Shown here in pieces: positions 3,540 to 32,511 of a stretch of 33,747 nucleotides of DNA. Both the position numbers and the translations under genes were made by a program. The notes under the pieces are model-generated. The model was not told the origin of the DNA. It saw only the letters and a program-made list of their open reading frames with translations, and made no database searches. Source of the stretch: a virus; IMG/VR virus record IMGVR_UViG_3300031862_000787, positions 1-33,747 of that record. One strand, written 5' to 3'. Numbering within the stretch: the first letter of the stretch is position 1; each line of letters opens with the position of its first letter.

Positions 3540-6500
3540 CTATTTCCCGACCTTCTTGGCACGCAAGGCATCGTGAGCAGCTTGGCGTTGTCGCTGGTGT
3601 TCTGCTTGGAGTTCGTCGGCGATCGGTGCGTGTCCCGTGCGGCGCTCGTATTCCCGGGAGAGGATCGTCACGAGTCCTTCCGACCCCTCGTGAGGCTCGC
3701 CTCGGACGCGTTCCCGGCCTGCGGCATCGTGGCCGCTCGTTGCGTAGGTGTTCGCGGCGATCCGGGAAAGGATCTCGTCTTCATCCATTCCCGCCAGCTT
3801 CTTGGTCAACTGCTCGTTTGTCCTCTGTGCAGCCATCTCCTTGCGCGACTCTTCGAGGTCTTTGGCTGTCAACAAGCCTTCGGCGCGAACCTGCGTCTCC
3901 TGCCACTGAGCTTCTTTTCCGGCTTTGGCCTGGCCCGGACCTCTCCCCGTTACCTGTGACTTGGCTATCAGCGAAGTCCACGCATCCGTTTTCTTGATCT
4001 CGTCGATCAACGTGTCCACGTCCGTGGGCCGGCCAAACCATCCCGCGAAGTACGCATAGAGCGTATCTTCGAGTTTCCTCCTGCCGGTCGCAGTCTGATA
4101 GAACTTCTTGGCGTCTGCCCCAATCAGGCCGATGATGGCCTGCTCCAAAGACTTCATGCTTGCCGGCGTGGCCACGGGACGAGGCTCGAATACATTCGGG
4201 TAGGTCTCCATGCCCGTGATGGCAACCTGAGTCTGCTTGAGGAATGGCTGCAAGTCCTGGTAGAGCTTGTTGACCGGCCCCTGTGCCAGATCCTTGGCAG
4301 CTTCCAAGGCGGCCTCTTTGCTATCCACAAAGCCAGCCTCGTACCGCCACAGCACGCCGGACAACTGTTCCATCCCGAACCACTCTGCGAAATCCGACAG
4401 AGCCGTATCGCCCCACAGAGTGCAGTCGCCGACATTGACGTGTGGCTGAGACCGCAGCCAGAACGCCAAGTGCTCTTCTTTCTTGCGTGCCTCGTCGTTG
4501 CGATGGTTCCATAGCCATGCAAGTCCGTAGAGGGCCAGCACGCGGACAAGCCACTTCGCCACATTGGCGGCGACGACCCCGGCCATAGCCGACGCAGCTT
4601 CGTCCGTCGCGTCTTCCTTGGCGGCGTTCAAGAGCGCCCTCGGCCAGAAGGTCAGGTTCTTCTTCAGATAGGAATAGAACGGAATCAAGCCATTGCGGAG
4701 AACGTCATTCTCCCACGGCGTGAAAGCTCCGTAGTCTACCATCGTCTCCCGCGAGTGCTTCGCGGCCGCTCGGTACTTATCCGTCTTGGCGAGTTCCTGG
4801 ACATCCGCCACATTTCCGGCCCAGTGCCGCAAGGGCCTACCGTGCTTGATGTCGTCCAGCGTCCCCAGGAAAACCGCTGCCCGCAGGATGTCTTCGCGGA
4901 ACTGAGTCAGGTCCTGCTCTATCTGGCCGGCCCGTCCCAGGAGTTTCAGCGGAGCGGCGAATGTGGCTCTTACGGCAGACACAAAACCTTTCTGCGTGCC
5001 CAGATCCGCGAACCGCTCGAACTGCTGCATGGTCCGGGGATCGTTCATCTCGTTCCACAGGCTGGAGCCGACAGCGCCGTATCGCTGCATGGCCTCGTAG
5101 ACTTCGCCCTTTTTCTCGATCAGGAGTCTCATGGCCTGGGGGATGTATTTCACCTTGCTCGTTTGGCCCGAAGCGTTGAGCCGCTCAACATCACCGATCT
5201 GGTTGCGGGCGTTGTAGCGCAGCGGGTTGACCCGCAGATACCAGCGTTTGAGGAATTGAATGGCGGGCTTCGAAAAAGATGCCACGATCAGGTTGCTCCG
5301 CTTGTTGACGGGCAGGTCGTCCAACTGCTTCGCCAGCCAATCGGGGATCAGCATTCCCTTGCGTTTGCCGCCCATGACAAGGGCCTGCCGCATCATGTCG
5401 CGCGGGATGTGCAGGATGTCGCCAGCCTCCTCAGCGGAGTTCTCGACCAGGATTGCCATCTGGGCTTCCGTGAGCGTGTTGGCGAGATACATCAGATTCG
5501 GCCGCTTGTACCACCACTCGGTATAGCCGTCGGCCTGCGCCAATCGTTCCGGGGTGACGTACTTGTCGCCGAGCCTCTCCTTCATCATCCTCTCGCGTTC
5601 ATGGATGGCTTTGAAGATACCCCGCGCCGCGAGACCATCCGCGTCGTTCGGCCGCTCGCGGACAATCGTGCTCAGGAGGTTGAAGAAGCCTTCCGAGTCC
5701 TCATCGGGGAGTTCTCCGACGATCTTCCGGAGCTTGCTCTTGTGCATGGCGACGCGCTGGCGATAGGGGTGGGTCGGGTCCAGTTGCGTCAATTCCGCAA
5801 TCCACTCTTTGCGCCCCTCGTCCCCCGACTGAGACTGGGCGATCATCCGGCGCAGTTTCTTGATCCGCAGTACATTGTCCGGCCCGCCAACGAGGACCTC
5901 GAAGTTCCGCGACTTGGCGTTCGCCGCATACTGCCTACGCTTGTCGTAGCGGCGGCCGATCTCGGTTGCCATGTCCTCGATGGCATTGTCGCGATAGATG
6001 TCTGAGAGGGCTTTGATCTCGACGGCCAGGTAGTGCGTGGAGATGTCGCCGGTGTAGCCCTTACGTTCCTTGCCGTAGCCGCGATAGGGCTCGGAAAGTT
6101 TCTTCGGCTTTGCAGTTCCCTTGTGGGCAACCTCGGCGTACATCAGGACGAAATGACGGACATAGGCCCGGTTGTCTCTGGCCTCCTCGCTGATAACGCC
6201 TCGGTCGAATAGGTCATTGCTGACTTTCTCCCAAAGGGCTTGCCGCGCCTCGTAGGCCGCCTGCACCGATGGGACCTTGGCAATCAATGCGTCCAGTCGG
6301 GCATTCTCCGTTGCAAGTTGCTCCACGTCCAAGTCCCCAGCCACAGACCGGTCGATCTCGGCTTCTTTCAAGAGGTCCTGCACGAACACCTTGCGGCGCA
6401 GAAGATCGAGCCCAGCCACATCGAGGGTCTGCACCCCCTTGCCGCCATTGTTGACAATATCCTCAATATCCCGAATCGCCTGGTCGGTAGCCGCCCGCAG

Positions 6501-9500
6501 TTCCTCCGGCATCGTGCGGATCATATCCCGCGCCAGGGCCGCCTCTGTCGTCTTGGGCAGGTTGTGCAGGTAGATGAACCGCTCCCGCAAGCCTTCTTTG
6601 GCCGCCTCAAGCACCTTCGCTATCTTGGCCTGTACAGGCATGACGTAGGTGCGTGCGAAGAAATCCTCAATCGCATCATCGGGCGATTTGACCTTATCTT
6701 CCGTCAGCCACGGCTTGGCAACCTTGCCGGTCTTGGCATCCGGTCCGAAGCGAACGAAACCGCCTTCGCCTTTGCCCTCGCCCTCAACGGTGGGATCGGC
6801 ACGGAAACCGGAAGATGGTTCCTCTGCGGTATCGGACTCCGCCTGCTCGCCGGACGATTGCGGCTGCTCTTCCGCAATGATCGGCTGGGACTGGTCGTGT
6901 TTCTTGTCCAGCCCGATTTCATTCTGCAACTGTGTCAGCTTGGCCCGTTTGTCGGTCAGATCCTTGGCCTTGGCGAAGGGCTTACCGGCTATCTCTTCCA
7001 ATTCCGCCAAGCGCCGCCGGTCGCGCTCGAGAATCGCCGCCTGCTGCTTGTAGCGATCCTCGATGCCGGCGACCGCGTTCTCAATCCGGGTGATGTTGCC
7101 GGAGGGACTCTCGCCGAGGTCCACGTCGTAGGTGAGCTTCGAGCCGTGCAGGCGAAGCCGCCACCATCCATTTTGTCCCTCGAAGCCAGAGGCCCAGCGG
7201 GCAGCCATCTTGAAGCCGTAGGCACTGCCGACCTCGGTCGGTTCCTGGCTGAACCAGTTGACCTTTGCCAGTTGCTCGTTGAGAGCTTCCGCCGCCTCCT
7301 TGCGTTTGGTGTACCGTGTCCCCGCGATCGTGATGTCGATACCTTCACCGGCTGCTTCGATAGCGGCCGTGGCTTTCTCGGCGTCGGCCTTGAGATGAGC
7401 GACCAACTCCTCCCCAGACTTGATCTTGTTGGGAAGGACGGCTTGCCGCTCCTCTTGTATCCGGAACTGATCCGCCCGATGCGCCTTTTCCTCTGCCTGG
7501 AGTTGCTTGACTTCAGCATCAAGCCGGATGGCCTCGATGATCTTGGGATTGCCCGACGCCAGAGCCTTCACTTCTGCATAGGTCAACGAGTTCTTGCTGA
7601 TATCCTCAATCTCGCGGCCGCTGGTCTCGCCGGACATCACCTGCTCGATAAACTTGGCTTTGGTCTCCAGCGTCTGCCACATGTAGGCGTCGAACGTGCC
7701 CTTGGTGACATACTCGAATTTCTGCACCTCGCTGAACATGTTGCCCTGACGTTCCATGCGGCCGTCGCGTTGTTCGACTTCGGCGGGGACCCACGGCGCG
7801 GTCAAATGGTGGGCGGCGATCAGACGCTCCTGTACGTTGGCCCCGGTCCCCATCTTGCCGGTGGAAGCCAATAGAACCCGGATCTTGCCGGCGTTCGCTT
7901 TCAGATAGAGAGACGCCTGCTGCTTCTCGTCGGCCGCATCATGGATGAAGGCGATCTCGTCCTTCTTGACGCCCTTGGCAAGGAGCTTCTGTTTGAGATC
8001 GTCGTAGACCGACCATTTCCCTTTCTTCGGTGTGGACAGGTCGCACCAGATGACCTGCAGGGCCTTATCTTTGGCTGTCTCCTGATAGAGGCGGTAGACC
8101 TCATCAACGCAGCGGTTGATCTTGCTGCCGGGCGCATCTGGGGCGCCTTTGATGCGCAGCCGTGCATCGAGGGCAACGTGCCGGCCATCGTTGGTGACGG
8201 CGAGCATGTTGTCTTCCCACGGTTTGACGCGTCCGCTACGGATGTGCTCGGCCCGTTCGACCAGGCCCTCGATGTAATCCTCCACCTCGGGTATCGGCTC
8301 GCACTGAATCGTGGTCCTTTGGACCTTCGGCAACGGGATGTTCATTTGCTTCTTGGTGACGATATCCGTCACCGACCGGAACATCTGCATCAGTTCGGGC
8401 AGATTGGTGAACCGGGCAAAGCGGGTATTGACCCGAAAACCGCCGCCGGTGGGGTCCACTTCCACGTCAGTTACGGTGTCGCCAAACGTCTTGGCCCAGA
8501 AATCGAACGCCTGTAAACCCGCTTCTTTGAGGGCCTGGGGCTGCAAGTAGCGCTGGAGCGTGAACATCTCACCGATGGTATTGGTGATCGGCGTGCCGGT
8601 CGCGTAGACGATGCCGCGTTGCCGTGTCGTCGCGTTGAGATACTGGGCCTTCATGAACATGTCGAAAGACCGCTGGGTCTGCGCCACTTGCAGACCGGAC
8701 ACACGATCCATCTTCGTCACGAAGAACAGGTTCTTGTAAGCGTGCGATTCATCGACGAGCATCATGTCGATGCCAAGTTCATCGAAGTACGGGCCTTGAT
8801 CCTTCTTCCACTGGGCCTCTTGGCGCTTGAGCTTCTCCTCCAAAGCGGACTTGGCCTTCTCCAGCCGCTTGATGATGTTCTTATTCTCGCGGCCACGCTC
8901 GGCCTGCAAGGCGAGGATCTCTGTTTCCAGTTCGTCGATCTGCTCCTGGAAGAACGCCCGGATGCGCCCGGGCGACATGGGAATCTTTTCGAACGAGCTC
9001 ATCGGGACGATGATCCCATCCCAATCGCCGGTGGCGATCCGGTTCATCAGGGTCTGGCGTTTCTGGGGCGTGAAGTCGTCTTTCGTCGCCGCCAGGATGT
9101 TCGCGGACGGGTACAGCTTCATCCAGTCCACGCGCCAATCGTCGATCTTGTGGTTGGGGACGACGAAGATGGCTTTCTTGACCTGTCCGATCCGGCGGCC
9201 TTCCATCGCCATCGTGATGCCGGCAAAGGTCTTTCCTGCTCCCACCGCGTGCGCCATGAGCATGTTGCCGCCGGTGAGGAACCGGGCGACGGCGTTGGCC
9301 TGATGGGGCCTCAGTCTGCCGCCCGCCAGGGGCGTCGAGGATTGTCCGGGGCACCGCAGATACGAGCCGTCCCATTGGGGAAATACGGTGTGGTTGAAGG
9401 TGTCATTGTAGACACGGGCCAATCGTTTGGCTCGGTTCGCATCCGACCAGATCCACTGCTCGAATTCGTCCTTGATCTTCTGCTGCATGACGCGAGCGAT

Positions 9501-12500
9501 CGTGGTCGCGTCTTTATCCACGTAGCGATTGCCCTTCTCGTCCTTCCGCCATACGGTCGGCTCCTTGTAGTTCATCGTCTTGACGACCAGCTCCGCCGTC
9601 GGGAAGTCAGGCGTGTCCCACCGGCCGCTGGTCGCATTGCCGCTGATGACCCAGGAACCATCGTGCTCGAATTTCGTGAACTTGACGCCGTAGGTCCGGC
9701 CCGTGAGATGGCTGAGGAATTCCAGGTAGGTGTCGGCGTCGATCCAGGGGCTTCCCAATCGCACCGAGATATCAGTCGGCAGGATGTCTTCGGGCTGGAC
9801 CGCCTTCAAGGCGTCTGCGTTCGTCTGGTACTTCGAGTCGAGCTTGGCCGCCGCCTCGGCTGCCGCCAGTTTCCTGCGGACGTTACCGGAGAGGTAAAGG
9901 AAGGATGGTTCCCACTGGCCGGTCTCAGGATTGTCGAAGGCATGGCCGGCGATTTGCTTGGTCACGCCCTCCGGCTCCAATCCGAGTAGCTTGCCGATGT
10001 ACTCCAGGTCGATCCGGCCACGTTCGCTCATACTGACCGCGACGGCGTCTTGCGGGGAATCGGCCTTCTCGATGGCCTTGACGGAGAACTGCGTCCGTTC
10101 GGTGAAGATCTTGGTTTTGGTCGCTGTCTTGGTGTCGTTGTCCCAATTCTCCAGTGAAAGCAGGAGTGGAAGGTCTGGTTCGTTTTCAAACGTCCTGCGG
10201 TTATAGGGGGTGTGGAAGGCGTCGTACTTGGCCACGAACACGTCATAGGCTCTGTTGAGTTGTACACGGGCCTTCTCTACGGCGGCGCTTTCGGCGATGG
10301 GGTCGATCTGCAAGCTGATGAGCTTACGGGCTGCGCTCCGGACCTGGATCATCCCAGCGAAGCGTGGTCTTACTGCGCTGCCGACCTCAACGGGCACCAG
10401 AACGTCATCCCGCTTCTGAAAGACCTTGCCGTCCTCCATGACGTAGGCCCGGTCCTTGACATTCTCCGGGGCCATCTTCTGGAATTGGGGCTGGCGCATC
10501 TCGGTGTCCCGTTTGGTCTGGGCCGCATAGATGTCCTGGATCGGCTGGAACTGCCCCATCAGTTCAGCAATCTTGGCACGCAGGTCAATCCCGGTGGACT
10601 CCACCGTCATTTCGTTGGCCCGGTACATCGTGCCGCCGTAGCTGAGCTTGCCGAGGATGTTCTCGGGGTGATGGACGAAGTATTCATTGATGGCGAAGGT
10701 TTCCTCGCCCTGTTTGTACTTGCCGATGTCAATCCAGTTCTCGCCCTGGGCGGTTTCTCCGGCAGATCGTTTTTGCAGAACAAGGATATCGGTGACAACT
10801 TCCGTGTTGGCGATCTTGCCGAACGCTGTCTTGGGCAAACGAATCGCCCCCAGCAGGTCCGCCTCTTTCGCCAGATACTTGCGGACAGCGTTGTTGCCCT
10901 TGTCCATCGTCCCCTTGCTCGTGATGAAGGCAACGAGGCCGCCCGGGCGCGTCTTCTTCAGGGCCTTGGCGAAGTAGAAATCGTGGAGGGCAAACCGGAC
11001 GCTGCGCAAGTCCGAGTCCACCGGCTTGGTCTGCTCATCGAATGGCACGTTCGAGACGAACAGATCAAAGAAGCTGTCGGGATACCGCACGTCCTGAAAG
11101 CCGCTATTCTCGATGGACGCACTCTGATAGAGTTGCTTGGCGATGCGAGCCGAGAGGTTGTCAAGTTCCACGCCAAACAGGCGGCTTGCCGCGGCGATAT
11201 CGTCGGGCACCAAGCCGTAGAAGAGTCCCGTGCCGATGGCGGGCTCGTTGATCTTGCCGCCCTTGAATCCGAGCTTACCGAGTCCCTCCCAGATACCGCG
11301 CACGACATCCGGGCTGGTGTAGTGAGCATTCGGCGTGGACGCTCGGGCGGCCTGGTATTCCTCGTCCGACAGGAGCTCACGGAGTTCCTGGTACTCCTTG
11401 CTCCACTCGCTGTTGAAATTATCGAATGCCTGGACCAGTCCGCCCCAGCCGGCGTACTTGACGAGGATGGCCTGTTCCTCGGCGGTAGCAGTGCGCCCCT
11501 CAGCTTCGATCTGCTTGAGCAGACGGATGGCGGCGACATTATTGCGGAACTTGGTCTTTTGCCCGCCTGCCTCGATGGCGTCGGCGTCAGTTATTCGGTA
11601 GTCAAGCTGTCCGCCGAGGTGATCGTCGCGTCTTGGGGTTGGTCTACGTCCGGCAGGCTGATCCAGGTCTCGCGGATGATCTCCGATGTCTCCTCGACCG
11701 GGCGTCCGGCGGCGTCCGCCTGGTCCATGTAATTCTCCGCCTGCTCCTGGGCTTGCAGGACGTACTGCATCACTTGGCCTTTGCTCACCAGGTACTTGTA
11801 GAGGTTCGGCTGGTGCTTCTTGAGATGGTACAGCACTTCGCGGCCGATTGCCCTGATTTCCGAGACTGGAATGTTCGGTTGCTGGTTCATTGTTTTGTTC
11901 CTCTATTGGAGATTCTACCGCCGGGGCGGTATCTATGTCAACGGGCCTTGCTTCGGCCCCGACGAGCTGCTTACGTTCTGCTTCCAGGGCTTGAATCTTG
12001 GCCTCGACCTCACGCAACCTCGCGCCGCCATCGTTGACGGCCAGATCATAGGCGAAGTCCCTGCCCGGTCCCCGCAACTGCTTGAGTTCCTTGTCGATTT
12101 CCCTGAGTCGCTTTTCGCTCTGTTTGGATGGTTGACGAGCCTCGGGTTTCTGAGGTTCTGGCTTGGGCGTTTCCGCAGGTTTGGGTTGCTCCCCAATCCC
12201 TTCTTCCGGCGGCGGTTTCGCGACAGCAGCTTGCGGTTCCTGTAGAGGTGTCCCAGCACTGGTTTGTCGGTGCTGCCCGGTGCCTTCTATTTCGTTCGGC
12301 TGTGACTGGGTCTCACCGGCTTCCGACGGAGTGACCGCCTTTGCTTCCCTCTGTCCAAACAGGGGACGTTGGGGCTCACGCCCTATCCATTGTTCCCCAG
12401 CGTCCGGCAGTTCGGCTTGCTTTGACCCTGTGGCGGGCCGGAAGATTTCCTGACCGAAGATGCCCGCATCGAAAGAAGGGGACGGGGCCTGGGGGACGCG

Positions 12501-15500
12501 GGGCGGGGGAATTTGCCCCTCGGCCCTCGACCCTGTGGCCCCGCCCCTCGCGTCAGCGGTCCTCGCTTCTGGGGCCTGCGCAGGCGATTGCTCCTCAATG
12601 AGGCCTTCAAGAAAGTCGCCTATTTCGCCGGCGGAGTCTTCGGCCTGGATGGCGGCTCGTTCTTCGTCGGCTCCGGTCTCGGCTTCGGCTCCGGAACCAG
12701 AACGAACCGCTTGTTCCACTCCCTCTCGAACAGTCTCAGGAACTCTTTGGCTTGCTTGCTCATCGCGATATGCCTTTACGTACTTCTTCTGTGTATCACT
12801 CAAACGGTCCTCTGTCAAGCCCATGGCGCGGGCAGAGCCCAGGACCGCCTCACCGATTACGTGGTCGGGCACCTGCTGTCGCTTCGCAGAGTTGATGAGG
12901 TCGTTGAGTTTCTGCAAGGGCGACCGCTCGGGTTTCGGTCCCCGCTGGAAAGCCTCCGGTCCCAGCTCCTTCCGGACTTCTTCTGCGGCCCGCTTGGGCA
13001 CAAGCCAGTAGTCCTCTGCCCCGCGATTGTGGACCTTCCACACTTCGTCCGTCTTGGCCCGGAAGGCATCCATTGTGCTCTTGGGGAGTCGGGTCGGAAG
13101 CTGCTCGCACTCCGACTGCCAGACGAAGGTCTTGCGGCCTGCGATGGCCCGGTTGCCCTTGGAGCGCAGTCCCTTCTTGCCCCAACTGTACAGTTCATGT
13201 TCCTCTCGCCATTCGTCAGGGACAGAAGTGTAGATGACCTTTTGCCGCGCTTCGCTCGCAATGACATGGGTAGGCGGCCCGTTCGGAGTTCCGCGTTTAC
13301 GCGGTTCCGAGCCGCCGGAAGGCGGAACTGGGCTTCCAAACGCGGAATTTCGCGTTTGGGGACCCACTCCAAACGCTTCATCGCGCCACTGCCGCAGGTC
13401 GATCATGCGTTGGCTGCCGGACGGCTGGATCGCCTTGTTGAAGTCACTCTCCGTAGCGGCGCTCCATTCATCGAGCACGTATTCGTAGGCTCGGCCGCTT
13501 TGCTGGGCTGTCCCCGGCCTCTTGCCGCCTTCGTTGCCCGGATAGACGACGATGGGCCTATCGCCTTGCCAGTTGACGGCGCGGGCAATACCTCCATCGG
13601 AATCGACGACGAAAACCGGCTTCGCTTCTTCCTGCTCTGCGGCCGCCGGCTCGGCAGGGGCGACACCACCCTCCGGCACTTTCGGGCCTGTCTCAGTCGT
13701 ACTGGGGACCACAGACGGTACAGGTTCACGTTGTCCATAGGGAGCCTCCTTTTGCCGCGCTGCACTCGCAATGACATGCTGCGATCGCTGTTCAGCGTAC
13801 CGCTGGAATGCTTCCGCCGCCTCATCGCCGTAGATGTTCGCGTTGCTGTCGATGACGCCCTGTGCCATCTCGTCCGCACGTTCGGCTTCCTGGCGGGCCT
13901 GCTCGACGGCTTGTCTTGCCTTGTCCCCGGACAGCTTGCGGCCTGTCTCAGGATTGACGCCCGTGCGTTCCATCTCGTCGGCGATGTCTCTGGCAGCTTT
14001 GGAGGCGGTGCGGTAGCCGGCGTACTCCTTTGCCGATTCATCAAAGTGTGCTCTGACGGCTTCTGCATTCTCTGGGGCAGGGTAGTGCTGGTCGGGAACG
14101 AGTTCGCGCCGCGCTTCTTCCGTCGGCTCGGGGAAAGTCTTCTCGAAATCCCATTTCCCCGCTCCCGGCGTCGCCGGAGGAGTCTCTTGAGGTGCATTCG
14201 CCATTGGCTGGGATTGCCGCGCTTCGCTCGCAATGACATGCTTGGGCGATGCCTTCGCGGCAGCGGGCTGCTCGGCAGGTAGCGATGATTGCTGTTTCGG
14301 AGCGGCAAGGTCGGATTGGAGCTGCTCGACGAAATTCGGTTTTCCCTTCTGTTCGTCACGAGTCGTGTCCTTGGGGGATTTGCCCTGGGGCGTGCCTTGG
14401 GGTGCAGCAGATCGAGTGACAGGCTTTTGCTCTGCCTGCGTAGGCTCGACGATGGGCAGATCCTCAATCGGCAGGTTCTCGGTGGCTCTGGCAGCGATCT
14501 CACCTATCGTCCTGCGCTGTGGCGTGGCAGCCTGCGGCGTCTCGGGCTCATACGGCGGGGCGTTCGCGGGACGAGGCTCCGTCCTCGTTGTATCCGTAAT
14601 CGCCTGCGCTGCCCCGGCTGCGCCCGTCAGTCCGTAACCGGCAGTCAAACCACCGAGGCCCGCCTGGGCGATCCGCTTGCCCGAGGGACCCAACTCGATC
14701 TTCTCGCCATGAATCGTGGCGGCCCCGATCTGTACCCCTTCCTGCAAGGCTTCTTCCATGCCCTCGTTTACGGCCTTGCCGATATGTTTCAACTCGATCT
14801 GTCCGGCCTGCTTGGCGAGTTTGCCCCATGCCTTCTTGCGAACCGATTGGGCAAGTTGGCGCAGTGCATCCTTACCGACGCCCTTGCCAAGAGACAGAAT
14901 CTCATCAGCCTGCGAATGTTCGATGACGCCGTTGATCGTGCCGACGATCAGCCGTTCCAATTGCGCCTGATCTTCGGTGGCACCATTGCGCTTGGCCTCC
15001 TGGTACGCAGATTCTCCCTCTGCCATCGCTGCGGTAGCAAAAGCCCCAAGACCACCGGTGGATGCGGCCGCCATCGTGGAGACCGCCATCAAAGGCAGAG
15101 TCTCGAAGGTCGTATTGGCAATGTAGCCGAGAGCGCCCTTCTTCTGCGGCTGGATTTCCGCACGGAGAGAATCGTCATAGATGATCTTGGCGACAGTCTT
15201 GAGCTTATCCGCCGTCGGTTTCATTGACTCGCCCACAACAGGCTTGTCGGCATAGGACCCAAGTGTGCCCGGAATACCCCTCGCCCTTGCTTGCTTTTCC
15301 TTCTCGGCTGGCGATGTGGTGGGTGTCAGGATGGCCCCCAGTGTGCCTGGGACACTGGCAACAACTCGCAAGCCACCCCGTTCCAGGGCGTTATGGATCT
15401 CCTGCCGCCAGGTAACAGGACTGGGTTGCGACAGTTCGCCGTGGTCCGGCCCGGCCGGGTTCACAGCTTCACCCACGGTGCCCTCCCCAGCGGTCTGCAT

Positions 15501-15857
15501 CGCGTCCGGCTTCTGGGGTGCAGCGACCGACTCCGGTCTTCCCCAGATTTCTTGATACGCTTCGGCCATTCCCGGCTGCATCGTGGCGAAATCCTCGGGA
15601 CTGCCGGGCTCCGGCGTGAGCCAGCGTGTCGCCCTTTCTTCGAGCGAAAGGACCGGTGTTGCCTCCTGAGCGGCGGTTTGGGCCACGGCGGGCGTCTTGC
15701 CCGCCAGCAGAGCATCGAGCTTCGCAACGCGTGGCGATGGTGTCGGAGCGGCAGGGGTTTGTGTCGGTGCCGTGGCAGAAGCCTCCAGTCCTTCCCCGGC
15801 CGATTGGACCGGCTTGCCTTCCATCAGTGCATTCAACTTGTCCAGTCGCGTAGGCAT
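3540..15857 (-). CDS. Giant polyvalent internal virion protein with DarB-like methyltransferase and SNF2-type helicase
   Basis: 4105 residues. Domains seen: hydrophobic Gly/Ala segments (about 250-280 and 396-420) in an internal-virion-like N-terminus; Pro/Gln-rich linkers with three in-frame palindromic repeats (about 540, 694, 864); a coiled coil (about 1246-1300); an N6-adenine methyltransferase (about 1424-1705) with motif I NEPAIGTG (1537-1544) and the catalytic motif as NVPF (1603-1606) rather than NPPY; a helicase with Walker A GAGKT (about 2206-2210), DESH (2369-2372), ATGTPITN and QRDGRMERQG (about 2695); a coiled coil; then large helical regions resembling the large polyvalent protein-associated domains, with a hydrophobic helix near 3755-3782. 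Phage P1 DarB pairs the same two enzymes and is packaged to block type I restriction. Gene order (after two internal-virion candidates, before fibres) supports an ejected protein. The antirestriction role is inferred. A second gene lies in another frame at 11591-11890. Confidence 0.85.
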   Translation of the reverse strand: MPTRLDKLNALMEGKPVQSAGEGLEASATAPTQTPAAPTPSPRVAKLDALLAGKTPAVAQTAAQEATPVLSLEERATRWLTPEPGSPEDFATMQPGMAEAYQEIWGRPESVAAPQKPDAMQTAGEGTVGEAVNPAGPDHGELSQPSPVTWRQEIHNALERGGLRVVASVPGTLGAILTPTTSPAEKEKQARARGIPGTLGSYADKPVVGESMKPTADKLKTVAKIIYDDSLRAEIQPQKKGALGYIANTTFETLPLMAVSTMAAASTGGLGAFATAAMAEGESAYQEAKRNGATEDQAQLERLIVGTINGVIEHSQADEILSLGKGVGKDALRQLAQSVRKKAWGKLAKQAGQIELKHIGKAVNEGMEEALQEGVQIGAATIHGEKIELGPSGKRIAQAGLGGLTAGYGLTGAAGAAQAITDTTRTEPRPANAPPYEPETPQAATPQRRTIGEIAARATENLPIEDLPIVEPTQAEQKPVTRSAAPQGTPQGKSPKDTTRDEQKGKPNFVEQLQSDLAAPKQQSSLPAEQPAAAKASPKHVIASEARQSQPMANAPQETPPATPGAGKWDFEKTFPEPTEEARRELVPDQHYPAPENAEAVRAHFDESAKEYAGYRTASKAARDIADEMERTGVNPETGRKLSGDKARQAVEQARQEAERADEMAQGVIDSNANIYGDEAAEAFQRYAEQRSQHVIASAARQKEAPYGQREPVPSVVPSTTETGPKVPEGGVAPAEPAAAEQEEAKPVFVVDSDGGIARAVNWQGDRPIVVYPGNEGGKRPGTAQQSGRAYEYVLDEWSAATESDFNKAIQPSGSQRMIDLRQWRDEAFGVGPQTRNSAFGSPVPPSGGSEPRKRGTPNGPPTHVIASEARQKVIYTSVPDEWREEHELYSWGKKGLRSKGNRAIAGRKTFVWQSECEQLPTRLPKSTMDAFRAKTDEVWKVHNRGAEDYWLVPKRAAEEVRKELGPEAFQRGPKPERSPLQKLNDLINSAKRQQVPDHVIGEAVLGSARAMGLTEDRLSDTQKKYVKAYRDEQASQRVPETVREGVEQAVRSGSGAEAETGADEERAAIQAEDSAGEIGDFLEGLIEEQSPAQAPEARTADARGGATGSRAEGQIPPPRVPQAPSPSFDAGIFGQEIFRPATGSKQAELPDAGEQWIGREPQRPLFGQREAKAVTPSEAGETQSQPNEIEGTGQHRQTSAGTPLQEPQAAVAKPPPEEGIGEQPKPAETPKPEPQKPEARQPSKQSEKRLREIDKELKQLRGPGRDFAYDLAVNDGGARLREVEAKIQALEAERKQLVGAEARPVDIDTAPAVESPIEEQNNEPATEHSSLGNQGNRPRSAVPSQEAPAEPLQVPGEQRPSDAVRPASPGAGGELHGPGGRRRTPGRGDIGDHPRDLDQPAGRRPTPRRDDHLGGQLDYRITDADAIEAGGQKTKFRNNVAAIRLLKQIEAEGRTATAEEQAILVKYAGWGGLVQAFDNFNSEWSKEYQELRELLSDEEYQAARASTPNAHYTSPDVVRGIWEGLGKLGFKGGKINEPAIGTGLFYGLVPDDIAAASRLFGVELDNLSARIAKQLYQSASIENSGFQDVRYPDSFFDLFVSNVPFDEQTKPVDSDLRSVRFALHDFYFAKALKKTRPGGLVAFITSKGTMDKGNNAVRKYLAKEADLLGAIRLPKTAFGKIANTEVVTDILVLQKRSAGETAQGENWIDIGKYKQGEETFAINEYFVHHPENILGKLSYGGTMYRANEMTVESTGIDLRAKIAELMGQFQPIQDIYAAQTKRDTEMRQPQFQKMAPENVKDRAYVMEDGKVFQKRDDVLVPVEVGSAVRPRFAGMIQVRSAARKLISLQIDPIAESAAVEKARVQLNRAYDVFVAKYDAFHTPYNRRTFENEPDLPLLLSLENWDNDTKTATKTKIFTERTQFSVKAIEKADSPQDAVAVSMSERGRIDLEYIGKLLGLEPEGVTKQIAGHAFDNPETGQWEPSFLYLSGNVRRKLAAAEAAAKLDSKYQTNADALKAVQPEDILPTDISVRLGSPWIDADTYLEFLSHLTGRTYGVKFTKFEHDGSWVISGNATSGRWDTPDFPTAELVVKTMNYKEPTVWRKDEKGNRYVDKDATTIARVMQQKIKDEFEQWIWSDANRAKRLARVYNDTFNHTVFPQWDGSYLRCPGQSSTPLAGGRLRPHQANAVARFLTGGNMLMAHAVGAGKTFAGITMAMEGRRIGQVKKAIFVVPNHKIDDWRVDWMKLYPSANILAATKDDFTPQKRQTLMNRIATGDWDGIIVPMSSFEKIPMSPGRIRAFFQEQIDELETEILALQAERGRENKNIIKRLEKAKSALEEKLKRQEAQWKKDQGPYFDELGIDMMLVDESHAYKNLFFVTKMDRVSGLQVAQTQRSFDMFMKAQYLNATTRQRGIVYATGTPITNTIGEMFTLQRYLQPQALKEAGLQAFDFWAKTFGDTVTDVEVDPTGGGFRVNTRFARFTNLPELMQMFRSVTDIVTKKQMNIPLPKVQRTTIQCEPIPEVEDYIEGLVERAEHIRSGRVKPWEDNMLAVTNDGRHVALDARLRIKGAPDAPGSKINRCVDEVYRLYQETAKDKALQVIWCDLSTPKKGKWSVYDDLKQKLLAKGVKKDEIAFIHDAADEKQQASLYLKANAGKIRVLLASTGKMGTGANVQERLIAAHHLTAPWVPAEVEQRDGRMERQGNMFSEVQKFEYVTKGTFDAYMWQTLETKAKFIEQVMSGETSGREIEDISKNSLTYAEVKALASGNPKIIEAIRLDAEVKQLQAEEKAHRADQFRIQEERQAVLPNKIKSGEELVAHLKADAEKATAAIEAAGEGIDITIAGTRYTKRKEAAEALNEQLAKVNWFSQEPTEVGSAYGFKMAARWASGFEGQNGWWRLRLHGSKLTYDVDLGESPSGNITRIENAVAGIEDRYKQQAAILERDRRRLAELEEIAGKPFAKAKDLTDKRAKLTQLQNEIGLDKKHDQSQPIIAEEQPQSSGEQAESDTAEEPSSGFRADPTVEGEGKGEGGFVRFGPDAKTGKVAKPWLTEDKVKSPDDAIEDFFARTYVMPVQAKIAKVLEAAKEGLRERFIYLHNLPKTTEAALARDMIRTMPEELRAATDQAIRDIEDIVNNGGKGVQTLDVAGLDLLRRKVFVQDLLKEAEIDRSVAGDLDVEQLATENARLDALIAKVPSVQAAYEARQALWEKVSNDLFDRGVISEEARDNRAYVRHFVLMYAEVAHKGTAKPKKLSEPYRGYGKERKGYTGDISTHYLAVEIKALSDIYRDNAIEDMATEIGRRYDKRRQYAANAKSRNFEVLVGGPDNVLRIKKLRRMIAQSQSGDEGRKEWIAELTQLDPTHPYRQRVAMHKSKLRKIVGELPDEDSEGFFNLLSTIVRERPNDADGLAARGIFKAIHERERMMKERLGDKYVTPERLAQADGYTEWWYKRPNLMYLANTLTEAQMAILVENSAEEAGDILHIPRDMMRQALVMGGKRKGMLIPDWLAKQLDDLPVNKRSNLIVASFSKPAIQFLKRWYLRVNPLRYNARNQIGDVERLNASGQTSKVKYIPQAMRLLIEKKGEVYEAMQRYGAVGSSLWNEMNDPRTMQQFERFADLGTQKGFVSAVRATFAAPLKLLGRAGQIEQDLTQFREDILRAAVFLGTLDDIKHGRPLRHWAGNVADVQELAKTDKYRAAAKHSRETMVDYGAFTPWENDVLRNGLIPFYSYLKKNLTFWPRALLNAAKEDATDEAASAMAGVVAANVAKWLVRVLALYGLAWLWNHRNDEARKKEEHLAFWLRSQPHVNVGDCTLWGDTALSDFAEWFGMEQLSGVLWRYEAGFVDSKEAALEAAKDLAQGPVNKLYQDLQPFLKQTQVAITGMETYPNVFEPRPVATPASMKSLEQAIIGLIGADAKKFYQTATGRRKLEDTLYAYFAGWFGRPTDVDTLIDEIKKTDAWTSLIAKSQVTGRGPGQAKAGKEAQWQETQVRAEGLLTAKDLEESRKEMAAQRTNEQLTKKLAGMDEDEILSRIAANTYATSGHDAAGRERVRGEPHEGSEGLVTILSREYERRTGHAPIADELQAEHQRQRQAAHDALRAKKVGK
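11591..11890 (-). CDS. Nested 99-aa gene in the +1 frame of the giant gene
   Basis: Inside the giant gene, this frame has an ATG at 11890 preceded by a good ribosome binding site (AGAGGAA, 7 bases upstream) and ends in TAA at 11591. The product looks like a normal helical protein (IRAIGREVLYHLKKHQPNLY, then a Gln/Glu-rich helix, then ETWISLPDVDQ). The giant frame over the same bases reads as Arg/Gly/Pro-rich sequence (GGRRRTPGRGDIGDHPRD) typical of an out-of-frame reading. The conserved methyltransferase start (LDYRITDAD) begins exactly at this gene's stop. So the real coding frame seems to switch to this one for 300 bases. Possible explanations are a true overlapping gene, a programmed frameshift, or paired sequence errors. 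Family not recognised with certainty. Confidence 0.6.
   Translation of the reverse strand: MNQQPNIPVSEIRAIGREVLYHLKKHQPNLYKYLVSKGQVMQYVLQAQEQAENYMDQADAAGRPVEETSEIIRETWISLPDVDQPQDATITSADSLTTE
13242..13268 (-). repeat. Palindromic 27-bp repeat, copy 1 (in frame)
   Basis: The minus strand reads CATGTCATTGCGAGCGAAGC and continues GCGGCAA. It adds HVIASEARQ to the giant protein at about residue 864. This copy is identical to the one at 14214. It directly follows, in the plus direction precedes, a block of three hairpins of a second repeat family (13271-13375). The same sequence is open in all frames, giving SLRAKRGN or LPRFARNDM when read otherwise. Confidence 0.8.
13271..13375. repeat. Cluster of three hairpins inside the giant gene (second repeat family)
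   Basis: Three inverted repeats follow one another: CCGCG-TTTA-CGCGG, CCGCC-GGAA-GGCGG, and CCAAACGCG-GAATTT-CGCGTTTGG. In the giant protein they are read as a Gly/Pro/Ser/Arg-rich linker (FGSPVPPSGGSEPRKRGTPN). The third hairpin is shared with the end of the glycosyltransferase-like gene near 21417. The cluster abuts palindromic repeat copy 1, which suggests serial insertion of small elements at a tolerant linker. Confidence 0.65.
13752..13778 (-). repeat. Palindromic 27-bp repeat, copy 2 (in frame, diverged)
   Basis: Same element as at 13242 with two base changes in the centre (TGCACTCGC instead of TTCGCTCGC on the plus strand). It is read in frame as HVIASAARQ at about residue 694 of the giant protein, within a low-complexity linker. 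The divergence suggests an older insertion than copies 1 and 3. Confidence 0.75.
14214..14240 (-). repeat. Palindromic 27-bp repeat, copy 3 (in frame)
   Basis: Identical over 27 bases to the copy at 13242 and in the same orientation and frame, adding HVIASEARQ at about residue 540 of the giant protein. It lies between a Lys/Ala/Pro linker and a Pro/Thr-rich stretch. Confidence 0.8.
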
Positions 15858-15860
15858 TCA

Positions 15861-16940
15861 CTAACGTCCCGCAATGATGTCGATGATCTCTTTCGTGCTG
15901 AGTTTGCGGCGTTGGGCCGGGTTCTTCGGGTCGGGCACACCCTCCCTGATGGCCGTGAGCAGCTTTCGATAGAACTGCGGATCGCGAGCGAAGTCGGAGC
16001 GTAGATCAAATCCTTGGGGCAACCCTTTACCGACCATCGACTCCAGGGTCTGGAATTGCTCCGCCGTGTCCGTGTCCATGTGCATCTGCTTGAAGGTCTT
16101 GGGTGTAGTCGCGGCGGTGACGCCGCTTTCGGGAACATGACCACCGCTGGCGGCGTAAATGGCGTTTCCCCATTGCTGCCAGAAGGATGGCTTGGGCGCA
16201 GATGACTCCTGTTGAGGAATTGGCGTCGGTGTAGGTGATTCCGGCATCAGCCAATTCGCTGCTTTCGCGCCGAGTTCGCCGTAGTTGCGGACTTGTCCTA
16301 CCTGTTCCGGTGTCGGGGGAACCACTTGCGGGTCTGCACCGGCAACCAGATCAACCGGCGTTCGCCGTCTGGCAGTGACAACCTGTGTTTCCGGGACCAT
16401 GTCATTGCGAGCGGAGCGCGGCAATCCGCTCGCTGCTTGATTCGGACCCATCGGCAAGAGCTGCATCCCACCGGTAGGCCGATTCTCCAGAAAAAGCGAA
16501 CCCATCTGCGGGTTGGGCTGGGTCCTCTGGGAAGGCGACGAGCCGAAATCCTCGATTTCCGACGCGAGGCCCGGACTTGCGACTTTACCATATTCGGGTT
16601 GTCGCAGTCTGTTTATCTGCTCTGCCTGCCAGGTGAGTTGCTTTTGCTTCTGCAATTGCGCGTTGGCTTTGAGGGAGCGGAACTTCCCGCTCACCTCGGG
16701 CGCGATGCCGGCCTGGGATGCATAGGCGTCAAAGGCATCGGCATATTCCGATGTCCCAATCTCGCCGCGATCTTGGGCGAATCTGTCGGCCTGATCGAGC
16801 GTCTGCATCGTGGCCTTCGCCTTGTTGAGATCCAGCGACTGCCGCTGGGCTTCCATCTTCAGCCGGTCCTCCCGAATGGGCGGAAGCACGCTGAAAGCCA
16901 GGTCGCCGAAGAATTTGCCCACGTCCTGCATCGAAGCCAT
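15861..16940 (-). CDS. Putative internal virion protein
   Basis: This 359-residue protein has no recognised enzyme motif. The N-terminal half is helical and Gln/Lys-rich (KMEAQRQSLDLNKAKATMQT and LQKQKQLTWQAEQINRLRQP), the middle is a Pro/Gln/Thr-rich linker, and the C-terminal part is helical (FQTLESMVGKGLPQGF to STKEIIDIIAGR). An in-frame palindromic repeat in the opposite orientation adds LPRSARNDM at about residues 173-181. The gene sits between the 280-residue gene (18-base gap) and the giant gene (3-base gap), the place where podoviruses carry the proteins ejected before or with the DNA. The role is inferred from order and composition; the N-terminus could also form a short coiled coil. 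Confidence 0.55.
   Translation of the reverse strand: MASMQDVGKFFGDLAFSVLPPIREDRLKMEAQRQSLDLNKAKATMQTLDQADRFAQDRGEIGTSEYADAFDAYASQAGIAPEVSGKFRSLKANAQLQKQKQLTWQAEQINRLRQPEYGKVASPGLASEIEDFGSSPSQRTQPNPQMGSLFLENRPTGGMQLLPMGPNQAASGLPRSARNDMVPETQVVTARRRTPVDLVAGADPQVVPPTPEQVGQVRNYGELGAKAANWLMPESPTPTPIPQQESSAPKPSFWQQWGNAIYAASGGHVPESGVTAATTPKTFKQMHMDTDTAEQFQTLESMVGKGLPQGFDLRSDFARDPQFYRKLLTAIREGVPDPKNPAQRRKLSTKEIIDIIAGR
16398..16424 (+). repeat. Palindromic 27-bp repeat, copy 4 (inverted, in frame)
   Basis: This copy has the opposite orientation to the others: the plus strand carries CATGTCATTGCGAGCGGAGC then GCGGCAA, with one base change from the consensus. It is still open in frame, adding LPRSARNDM to the internal virion candidate. 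It shows that the element inserts in either direction without stopping the gene. Confidence 0.75.
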
Positions 16941-24768: not shown

Positions 24769-25566
24769 TCACCCGCTGGCAGTCATCGCGCGTTCCACTT
24801 GCGCGGCCACGTCGTCCAGCGAGCCTTTCTTGATCTCGACATTGCGGAATGTGGGTCGGCCGCCGCCGCCCGTATCGGTGGGCGTCTCGGACCTCTTGCG
24901 AGAGGGCTTGTCTTTCTCTTTCGTCTTGGCCTCTTCCTTGGCCTGGGCGAAGCACTCATCGAGCATGAGCGTCGCTTCCGCTTGCGTGGCGGGCTCGCCC
25001 TCGGTCTCAATCCGTTTCTCCATCACTTCGATGGCCCGGTTGCGTAGACCGGCTCCGTGCTTACCCTCCAAGCGGGTACAGACTTTTTGAAAGATGGCGT
25101 TCTTCTGCTTCTCGGCTTCGGATTGTTGGCGCTGCTGCTGACGTTCGGTGTCCGATCGCTCGGCCTTGGTCTTCAGGGTTGCCAACTCCTTGTTCAGATC
25201 GCGAATCACTTTGGCAATCTGAGGCAGAGCCTTGGCGATTTCGTCCCCGGTCATGTTCTCCGGGTCGAATTCGGGCAGCAGTTGCGTCACCTGGTCCTCG
25301 GCGGCTTTGCCGGCCGTGAGTTCGGCGACCTTCTGGGACAATTCCGTGTGCTTCGCCTGCATCTCGGCAAGCTGCGCACCGAGTTGTTCCTTTTCCTGCC
25401 GGGCCTTGCGCAGATTGGCTTCGGCCTGGTCAGCGCGCTGGCGGTCTTTGTCGAATTGCCGCGCTTCGCTCGCAATGACAAGCTCCCTGGCGGCGGCTTC
25501 GTCGTCTTTGGTCTGGTCTACCACCTCTTGGTCCTTGGTTTCGGTGTCCTTCGTTGGTTCCGTCAT
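24769..25566 (-). CDS. Scaffold protein
   Basis: 265 residues from the ATG at 25566, which has a strong ribosome binding site (AAGGAG, 9 bases upstream). A longer form starting with TTG at 25701 lies against the upstream terminator and lacks one. The protein is highly charged and helical: acidic start (TEPTKDTETKDQEVVDQTKD), long coiled coil (ANLRKARQEKEQLGAQLAEM and on to about residue 165), then a Lys/Glu-rich tail and a short C-terminal helix (GSLDDVAAQVERAMTASG). This is the classic look of a scaffold that guides capsid assembly, with the C-terminus binding the coat. It is directly before the major capsid gene. A palindromic repeat adds IASEARQ at residues 31-37, before the coiled coil. 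Confidence 0.8.
   Translation of the reverse strand: MTEPTKDTETKDQEVVDQTKDDEAAARELVIASEARQFDKDRQRADQAEANLRKARQEKEQLGAQLAEMQAKHTELSQKVAELTAGKAAEDQVTQLLPEFDPENMTGDEIAKALPQIAKVIRDLNKELATLKTKAERSDTERQQQRQQSEAEKQKNAIFQKVCTRLEGKHGAGLRNRAIEVMEKRIETEGEPATQAEATLMLDECFAQAKEEAKTKEKDKPSRKRSETPTDTGGGGRPTFRNVEIKKGSLDDVAAQVERAMTASG
25456..25480 (-). repeat. Palindromic repeat, copy 5 (in frame in scaffold)
   Basis: Twenty-five bases match the consensus exactly (minus strand TGTCATTGCGAGCGAAGCGC then GGCAA); the last two bases differ. It is in the same orientation relative to transcription as copies 1-3 and adds VIASEARQ before the coiled coil of the scaffold protein. Confidence 0.8.
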
Positions 25567-30723: not shown

Positions 30724-32511
30724 TCATGCTCCAAAAGACTCCACATCTTCTTCGCTGTCGATGTCGTCATCATCCTCCCATCCATCCGTGGCTCCGGCGA
30801 CACTGGCCCGCGCGAATCCTCCTGACCTCTGTCCCGGCCGATCGGCCGTGTCGGTCTGCTGAATGTCAGCCCGGCCCATCGAGCACTGCTGGTGCAACTG
30901 CACCAGGCCCACGAGCATCATCACGAAATCGTCATGGTGTCCTGTGGCCGCCTGCCACTTGCCGCCCTTGTTCACGAAAGCCCGCAGCTCCGCAATGATC
31001 TCGGCGTCCTTGATGGTCAGTTGCCCGGCCTTCAGGACCGTGCGCAGGGCTTCGATGTAGGGCTTACGATTGAGCGGCCCGATCTTGAGGCCCAGCTTGT
31101 CCGTGGGTTGCTCGGCATACTCGTCCTGGCCGTTCTTCCGCTGGTAGATGTGCGGGTAACTCGCCCGCTTGAACTCGTCGAGGACTGCCAGACCGCAGGA
31201 ATTGACTTCGGGGCTCGCCCAAGCGTTGTTGTAGTACATCGCGGCCCACAGAAGCTGCCGGGCGTATTCCACCGTGTCCTGCTGGCTGTGATAGGTCGCG
31301 ACCACTTCCCCGGTCTGGCGGCAGAGAATCCCGCCGGCGTGGAAGTCGGTGCCTTTCTCCGGCTGATCGGGGTCGGCCAGAAGGCCCTCCATGACATCGC
31401 CGTAGACCACGTAGTCGCGGTTGACCTGCGGCCACTCCCAGATCTTCCAGACGCTCAGGCGGCGGTCCACCCGCACGGGGATCGGCCGGCCGCGAGCATC
31501 GTCCATCGCGAACTGCACGGTACTGAGCGGCTCGCAGCAACGCGTCTGCATAACGTCCAGCACAGCCGCATCGAAGATCGAGAAATTCGTCGCCTGGAAC
31601 GCCTCGCGCGGCAGAGAGGGGTACTCCCGAAGCATGTCCGGGCCGAGAGTCGCACGCTTCTTGACGTACCAGGTCCGCTGCTGGGGCGATAAAGAAACGT
31701 TCGCCTCGCGTTCCACGACAGCGAAATAGGCGTCATCTGCCCCGGTGAGTTGGGCGAACTGCGGGTCCAGCACGTAGGCCGGGTTGCGATACCAGGGCAC
31801 GAAATGGAACCGGTAGTCAAACCGGCTGAGCGGCCCTACATGCTTGCGGGCCGCCTCACACATCTCGAAGAAGTCCCCGCTGGCACCCTCGGCCGTAGAC
31901 TCGATGAACACAATTGCTTCCTCGTGAGCGGCTTCGAGCGTCCCCGTTTTGACCTCACGGGCCTTGTCCGGGTAGTGGGCACACATGGCCCCGTACTCGC
32001 TCACGTGCAGCAGTTGCAGCGTCCCCGACCGCATCGAGGTATCGACGCGAAGGCCGCTATTGTTCGAGAGCAGCAGCTCGCCCCCATCCCGCTTGATCGC
32101 CGTCACCCACCGGCGGATCGAGGCCGGCAGGTGGTCGTAGGCGTACAGGATCTTGTCCCGGTAGATCACCTGGGCGGCTTCCAGCTTGTGCGCCACAATC
32201 CCGGCCCGCAGGTCGGAAGTGAAGAGGCACGAGTCGAGGAAATAGATTGCGATGAAGGTCGTAAAGCCCAGTTGCCGGGCCTTGAGGATGATGTTTCGCC
32301 AGTGGAGTTCGGCCAAGAGGTCCCGGATCGCCGGCCGCAAGGTGAACCTCTGTGGATGTCCGTCGTCATCGACCACCCAGTACAGGTGTTCCAACCGCCA
32401 GTACGGGTCCGCCATCGCCAAGCGAATCGGCTCCGATTCCGTTTGCCGCGCTTCGCTCGCAATTGTCTGATCCCGCGTGGGACTGTTAAGATGGGATGAT
32501 ACGGCTACCAT
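30724..32511 (-). CDS. terL: Terminase large subunit
   Basis: 595 residues. The ATPase part has a Walker A-like KARQLGFTT (77-85), a Walker B LLHVSEYG (167-174, ending in the usual acidic residue) and a coupling motif ESTAEGA (204-210). The nuclease part has Asp372 in YGDVMEG and a C-terminal HHDDFVMML stretch, as expected for the RNase H-like fold that cuts concatemers. It packages DNA through the portal. The start at 32511 overlaps the small-subunit gene by 26 bases and has GGAGATCA before it. A palindromic repeat adds TIASEARQ at residues 16-23, ahead of the ATPase domain. A terminator follows. This is a secure assignment. Confidence 0.9.
   Translation of the reverse strand: MVAVSSHLNSPTRDQTIASEARQTESEPIRLAMADPYWRLEHLYWVVDDDGHPQRFTLRPAIRDLLAELHWRNIILKARQLGFTTFIAIYFLDSCLFTSDLRAGIVAHKLEAAQVIYRDKILYAYDHLPASIRRWVTAIKRDGGELLLSNNSGLRVDTSMRSGTLQLLHVSEYGAMCAHYPDKAREVKTGTLEAAHEEAIVFIESTAEGASGDFFEMCEAARKHVGPLSRFDYRFHFVPWYRNPAYVLDPQFAQLTGADDAYFAVVEREANVSLSPQQRTWYVKKRATLGPDMLREYPSLPREAFQATNFSIFDAAVLDVMQTRCCEPLSTVQFAMDDARGRPIPVRVDRRLSVWKIWEWPQVNRDYVVYGDVMEGLLADPDQPEKGTDFHAGGILCRQTGEVVATYHSQQDTVEYARQLLWAAMYYNNAWASPEVNSCGLAVLDEFKRASYPHIYQRKNGQDEYAEQPTDKLGLKIGPLNRKPYIEALRTVLKAGQLTIKDAEIIAELRAFVNKGGKWQAATGHHDDFVMMLVGLVQLHQQCSMGRADIQQTDTADRPGQRSGGFARASVAGATDGWEDDDDIDSEEDVESFGA
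32443..32467 (-). repeat. Palindromic repeat, copy 6 (in frame in terL)
   Basis: Minus strand ATTGCGAGCGAAGCGCGGCA and the next A match the consensus; the outer part (CATGTC) is diverged to AGACA. It adds IASEARQ near the N-terminus of the large terminase, before the ATPase domain. Confidence 0.75.

Follow-up and report, generated by a model that had tools for sequence, protein, structure and literature searches.

The window analysed here, that is, the whole stretch of 33,747 nt of viral DNA under IMG/VR virus record IMGVR_UViG_3300031862_000787, contains a giant DarB-like polyvalent gene on the minus strand (3540..15857, 4105 codons). The gene matches phrog_10089 (DarB-like antirestriction, E=0) and has the DarB-like fusion of an LPD36-methylase to an SNF2-type helicase. 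The LPD36 plus N6-adenine methylase region occupies 10458..11609 on the minus strand and shows 40-50% identity to DarB-like phage proteins in tblastn; the LPD36 domain has been described previously (PMC5512222). The SNF2/SF2 helicase region lies at 7638..9317 on the same strand, approximately residues 2181-2740, with ResIII, SNF2-rel_dom and Helicase_C matches. Located entirely inside this gene is a second open reading frame (ORF) of 99 codons (11591..11890, minus strand), which runs from ATG to TAA in the +1 frame of the giant gene (nested start minus giant start is 1 mod 3) and would encode a small helical protein, P0002. The ORF is preceded by the Shine-Dalgarno (SD) sequence AGAGGAA at 11904..11898 (minus strand), 7 nt before the ATG, and this SD is conserved among relatives. 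The first-pass annotation had described a 99-codon ORF in this frame with its own SD, ATG and TAA, and all of these features are present.

The giant frame stays open throughout the nested ORF, and its reading across the nested gene (11594..11891, minus strand), the second coding of those bases, is a Gly/Pro/Arg-rich inter-domain linker. Gly, Pro, Ser, Arg and Gln make up 57% of giant-frame residues over the nested ORF versus 30% in the nested frame, which bears out the earlier remark on an Arg/Gly/Pro-rich giant frame; it is rich in Gly, Arg and Pro because out-of-frame reading of purine-rich coding sequence gives such a composition. The GC contents at giant codon positions 1/2/3 are 0.80/0.61/0.34 within the nested ORF versus 0.61/0.40/0.78 downstream. 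When the nested ORF is re-read in its own frame, the values become 0.61/0.34/0.80, the usual coding pattern, in agreement with the claim that the protein-like signal moves to the +1 frame. The LPD36/methylase homology begins at ~11609 and overlaps the nested stop, where the methyltransferase domain had been said to start. We note that ORF length was rejected as evidence for a nested gene: the giant gene contains 13 stop-free stretches of at least 80 codons in the +1 frame and 16 in the +2 frame, the nested ORF counted, which leaves 28 others. The nested ORF is regarded as beyond chance because of the comparative evidence and not because of its length.

Several further features of the window were recorded. 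The methylase motif of the giant gene reads SNVPFDEQ, with NVPF in place of NPP(Y/F); NVPF is also found in P1 DarB, and NPPF in Erwinia phage Pavtok and Pseudomonas phage Itty13. A dispersed repeat, GTCATTGCGAGCGAAGC..., has 7 matches in the window versus 0.38 expected, within coding sequence, with copies at 13238-13285, 13748-13795, 14210-14257, 25452-25499, 32439-32463 and 16401-16417 (+). It reads HVIASEARQ or similar at three giant-gene sites and also in other phage proteins, and it looks like an interspersed repeat spreading inside ORFs. No RNA family was found by Rfam within 9000-16500 of the window.

When the nested protein of the window was used as a lone query, no relative was found in IMG/VR, because the protein is too divergent. 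Weak tblastn matches were obtained in Pavtok and Itty13, and in both phages the match is a complete small +1 ORF that lies immediately before the methylase and is crossed by an open giant frame. Using the methylase region as bait, we gathered 46 DarB-like loci, the window included together with a few duplicates of one phage. An iterated profile detected a homologue of the nested ORF in 36 of the 46 loci, always in the +1 frame, although the matches in two Burkholderia phages (L037 and L040) are weak, with E-values of ~0.01. The check proposed earlier, whether homologues of the methyltransferase/helicase have a small gene just upstream of the methylase, is thus answered by these 36 loci, where the gene takes the form of a +1-nested ORF. 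The distance between the nested ORF and the methylase start is mostly no more than ~130 nt, with 350-560 nt in L013, L036 and L039. The hosts of these phages include Erwinia, Pseudomonas, Burkholderia, Klebsiella, Vibrio, Agrobacterium, Ochrobactrum, Sinorhizobium and Microcystis, and the set also includes IMG/VR contigs. Phage SopranoGao is, like Pavtok and Itty13, one of the phages with this nesting. The nested protein of the window is among the more divergent members, with 16-28% identity to its relatives.

In six of the ten loci without a profile match, the slot before the methylase is occupied by a +1 ORF: L009 (5711-5986), L019 (5735-6004), L032 (5675-5944), L043 (4465-4758), L044 (~5585-5914) and L047 (up to 6010). 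Good SD and ATG signals are found on the slot ORFs of at least L009, L019, L032 and L043. As candidate homologues of TnpV or of the phage family, the slot ORFs of L009, L019, L032, L043 and L044 gave no significant profile comparison, and their homology is unproven. Three more of the ten loci, L005, L045 and L046, contain a genuine TnpV nested elsewhere than the slot; the one in L005 (PF14198, E 2e-30) lies in the +1 frame of the giant gene. The remaining locus, L042 from Streptococcus, is the sole one among the 46 DarB-like loci in which no nested ORF was found. None of the annotated giant-gene records examined lists the small nested gene, whereas free-standing TnpV copies do carry annotation.

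Individual phage loci showed peculiarities of their own. At 4869-16127 of Itty13 (L004), the deposited annotation places three large ORFs on one strand, whereas the real DarB-like gene is on the other. Sinorhizobium phage PBC5 (L039, 4903-5476) has a split giant gene, in which the N-terminal ORF33 shares the frame of the nested domain and is fused to it, and the methylase frame opens separately. Either the fusion is natural or this early sequence contains an indel; the arrangement is the likely source of the phrog_938 'endolysin' with a TnpV-like tail. No relative of the PBC5 nested protein was found among PLSDB plasmids. Two contigs, L006 and L007, have unrelated DNA upstream of the nested start and are near-identical from the nested start onward, which makes this start the recombination boundary of an N-terminal module. 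In that case, therefore, recombination appears to have moved the nested gene together with the methylase-helicase as a unit.

The AlphaFold2 model of the window nested protein contains four helices, consistent with the helical product foreseen by the first-pass annotation, and the block-mean pLDDT is 82-91 over residues 11-70. Against the Pfam TnpV family (PF14198), the protein scores 24.2 bits (E 3.5e-5), below the gathering cut-off of 27 bits, and we therefore term it TnpV-like and not TnpV. Among the nested phage proteins, 16 of 20 match Pfam TnpV at E<=1. Comparison of the nested phage family with TnpV by hhalign gave probabilities of 60-72 and E-values of 3e-5 to 9e-5 over 48-49 columns only, the best being E 3.4e-5 with a probability of 72 over 49 columns. 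Membership of the window protein in the TnpV family is no more than probable. In the models, the two share the same order of helices in the aligned core, but the TnpV model adds an N-terminal beta hairpin and a longer final helix. Foldseek returned no informative hit for the window protein and no confident DNA-binding match, and the viral library gave nothing; PADLOC and NCBIfam contained no match to the nested protein. A weak PDB lead was 2apl (Porphyromonas gingivalis PG0816; probability 0.97, TM 0.53, E 0.58), which we take to be DUF1896. As a structural neighbour it was rejected, as the TnpV model lacks that match and a DUF1896 search matched no genome searched.

TnpV itself was found nested in DarB-like giant genes of Firmicutes elements. 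A scan of one genome per species yielded at least 571 methylase relatives, of which the best 80 were taken; these are titled Firmicutes or unplaced bacteria except for two metagenome bins (L089 and L094). In these best 80 of at least 571 relatives together with eight phage or gut loci, there are 72 TnpV hits nested at +1 in the methylase giant ORF. The other TnpV matches in these 88 loci comprise 5 at +1 in another long ORF, 8 standalone and none at +2. No TnpV was found in ten of the 88 loci, and in nine of these the upstream sequence is shorter than ~2.9 kb. Where TnpV is nested, it mostly occupies a different linker, at a distance of ~1.5-3.5 kb upstream of the methylase. Searching 15 genomes for TnpV gave 30 loci, 18 standalone and 12 nested. 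On a tree of 95 rows, which is weak as it is built from few columns, the nested or free state changes 5 times (3-5 in bootstraps) versus a mean of 20 after shuffling, and the state therefore seems to be inherited. Several Clostridia elements (L062, L065, L072, L086, L091, L054 and L064) have a second, standalone TnpV after the end of the giant gene. The genomes of L065 (G004) and L071 (G005) contain 34 and 26 TnpV matches, respectively, pointing to heavy loads of such mobile elements.

The start signals of the nested genes are conserved. An SD core precedes 64 of the 72 nested TnpV starts versus 13.5% of the other +1-frame ATGs in the same genes, and the near-invariant sequence GAAAGGAG is found at nested TnpV starts. 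In the phage set, the nested start codon is ATG in 33 of 34 loci, often as ATGAAC, and 10 of the 34 have an in-frame stop 2-5 codons 5' of it. The upstream in-frame stops, together with the conserved SD and ATG, support internal initiation over frameshifting as the probable mechanism for the nested gene.

Substitution-phase tests were run on relatives of the window; no close relative of the window itself usable for this test was found. In three gapless phage pairs, the substitutions at giant positions 1/2/3 are 29/10/9 over the nested ORF versus 41/20/166 over the methylase (L018-L033), 9/2/2 versus 1/1/28 (L015-L016) and 8/1/6 versus 9/4/25 (L037-L040). Giant position 1 is the third position of the nested frame, and it is there that substitutions over the nested ORF concentrate; in these pairs, the phase switch is located at the limits of the nested ORF. 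For 30 non-overlapping Clostridia pairs, all of equal nested length and not fully independent, the sums are 963/600/421 over the nested ORF versus 1170/672/3330 over the methylase (chi-square 1073). Identity in the nested frame is greater than in the giant frame in every pair. These observations show that the nested frame is under purifying selection in the relatives.

The giant frame is also kept open by selection in the relatives. It contains no stop in any of 74 nested TnpV genes, whereas the corresponding frame of standalone TnpV contains 1-10 stops (mean 4.9) in 21 of 21 genes, a contrast that is partly by definition, as open copies were classed as nested. In simulations of the Firmicutes set, the median probability that the giant frame is open, conditional on the protein and on local codon usage, is 5e-4, and the product of such probabilities over the 34 phage-set loci, which are related sequences, is ~1e-50. 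The third frame was almost never openable in simulations of the phage set. The offset is always +1 because the frame composed of nested positions 3, 1 and 2 is the only one readily kept stop-free by synonymous choice. The nested ORF thus has the properties of a fully nested overlapping gene, namely a complete ORF, its own ribosome-binding site and start, selection in the nested frame, as seen in the relatives, and an open outer frame.

Several other explanations of the locus were considered. The window is one viral contig, and two compensating indels in sequencing or assembly could in principle have disrupted one continuous giant protein, an artefact that had been raised as an alternative from the beginning. 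However, the same +1 shift, with the same limits and with SD and ATG, is present in finished phage genomes and many bacterial assemblies, and the phase switch is seen between relatives. The recurrence of this arrangement in dozens of independent genomes refutes the artefact, to which we give virtually no weight. A programmed +1 frameshift into the nested frame, stopping at the TAA, would produce a shortened N-terminal product ending in the small domain, while the remaining ribosomes would read through to the full giant protein. ORF33 of PBC5, which runs in the frame of the nested domain and stops where that domain does, is such a fusion, but it is a single old sequence that may carry an indel. 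In 10 of 34 loci an in-frame stop stands only 2-5 codons ahead of the nested start, so that a ribosome would have hardly any space in which to shift. The SD and ATG are conserved with the spacing expected of them, and free-standing homologues show that the domain is autonomous. We therefore consider frameshifting, another option of the first-pass annotation, very unlikely. The nested ORF might also be a passive relic, a middle gene trapped by gene fusion that is unexpressed and whose sequence persists through chance or simply because of how the linker is composed. Conservation of the linker sequence itself is poor, and the existence of free-standing TnpV genes makes trapping by fusion a plausible origin. 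For the same reason, the earlier suggestion that three ancestral genes became fused with the middle one trapped inside is a good evolutionary account. A relic, however, would be free to decay, and what is found instead is a retained SD and purifying selection in the nested frame, where changes fall preferentially at third positions; survival as an unexpressed relic is even more improbable than frameshifting.

These comparisons favour a complete, independently initiated small gene nested at +1 in a DarB-like gene, both frames being coding and the product being a small helical protein, probably an accessory one; we hold this reading with high confidence. On the comparative sequence evidence, the nested arrangement is a real conserved gene and not a sequencing error, because phages and mobile elements from widely differing bacteria have relatives of the giant gene with the same nesting. 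The 300 bases would be dual-coding, with the small gene using its own SD and ATG in the +1 frame and the giant frame reading a flexible inter-domain linker. The most likely mode of expression is independent initiation at the internal ATG of the giant-gene mRNA, and the four-helix protein would thus be produced whenever the giant protein is. That the nested protein is translated is something we infer from the sequences. The first-pass annotation had proposed a dual-coding gene making a small partner of the helicase/methyltransferase. Dual coding is upheld by the conserved ORF, the selection, the SD and ATG and the open giant frame, while what suggests the partner role is association only.

The function of the nested protein is a separate question. 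It may be an accessory of the methylase-helicase, that is, a partner, chaperone or regulator, delivered with the phage or element DNA, a proposal on which we are evenly divided. This role is favoured because phages and Firmicutes elements alike encode the small gene together with the methylase-helicase, on the same DNA. By analogy with Ulx and DarB of phage P1, the role could be in assembly, in packaging, or in holding the giant protein inactive before transfer. Alternatively, the small protein may be real but act as a DNA-binding or excision factor that rides in the giant gene without partnering the methylase-helicase. Serine recombinases are neighbours of standalone TnpV, for example in phiNJ3 and in Clostridioides difficile Tn6104-Tn6106 (PMC3158075), and the excision role of Tn4451 TnpV is only postulated, from its likeness to lambda Xis (PMC3158075). 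Nested copies, by contrast, go with the methylase-helicase gene in phages and Firmicutes elements of many hosts, the fold models match no DNA-binding protein with confidence, and the TnpV membership of the window protein is itself only probable. We regard an excision or DNA-binding factor as rather unlikely, though it deserves serious consideration beside the accessory role.

A broader and more tentative proposal, in which we have somewhat less than even confidence, is that DarB-like genes hold a conserved 'hidden slot' in a linker for a small +1-nested gene. In Firmicutes elements the occupant would be of TnpV type and in proteobacterial phages a distant relative; a few other loci would have small proteins that look unrelated. 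The nested protein would be a partner that the injected methylase-helicase always requires and from which it is genetically inseparable, and nesting would prevent the two from being separated when modular giant genes recombine.

What is new here is a widespread family that is annotated when free-standing and hidden inside the giant genes examined. In phages and mobile elements of at least two phyla, nested members of this protein family seem to have escaped notice, as annotation does not usually call one gene within another. The nested gene adds a conserved component to DarB-type systems. It also makes available many natural sequences of long-standing dual coding, together with free-standing controls, suitable for studies of two-frame co-evolution.

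Neither nested TnpV nor a nested gene in DarB was found to be reported in a search of open-access literature, and a text search of PMC5512222 found no mention of an out-of-frame gene. The TnpV genes in the published descriptions that we found are free-standing, unlike the nested gene of the window, although TnpV in Firmicutes resembles it in being +1-nested in DarB-like giant genes. P1 DarB, one of the polyvalent proteins (Iyer et al. 2017, PMC5512222), shares the LPD36-methylase-SNF2 helicase core with the giant gene of the window. Unlike the latter, it starts directly at the methylase, without a nested gene there. P1 DarB is packaged in the virion and guards the injected DNA (PMC5512222), and the giant protein of the window may likewise be virion-packaged and DNA-protecting. 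Entry of P1 DarB into the head is aided by small Dar proteins, Ulx among them (PMC9024508). Ulx resembles the nested protein in being small and DarB-linked, and is possibly a functional analogue; it differs in being encoded by an ordinary gene downstream of darB and in having no sequence similarity to the nested protein. As candidate homologues, Ulx and the other P1 dar-operon genes were rejected, given this lack of similarity and the absence of a gene before the methylase in P1 darB. Nested genes are known in phages, for example lambda Rz1 in Rz, a lysis pair. As in the window, a small gene lies wholly nested at +1 in a larger gene and each has its own start, but the Rz and Rz1 proteins are unrelated to those of the window. 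The window pair is further distinguished by placing a gene of ~100 codons in a linker of a gene 20-40 times longer, and by belonging to a family that also occurs free-standing.
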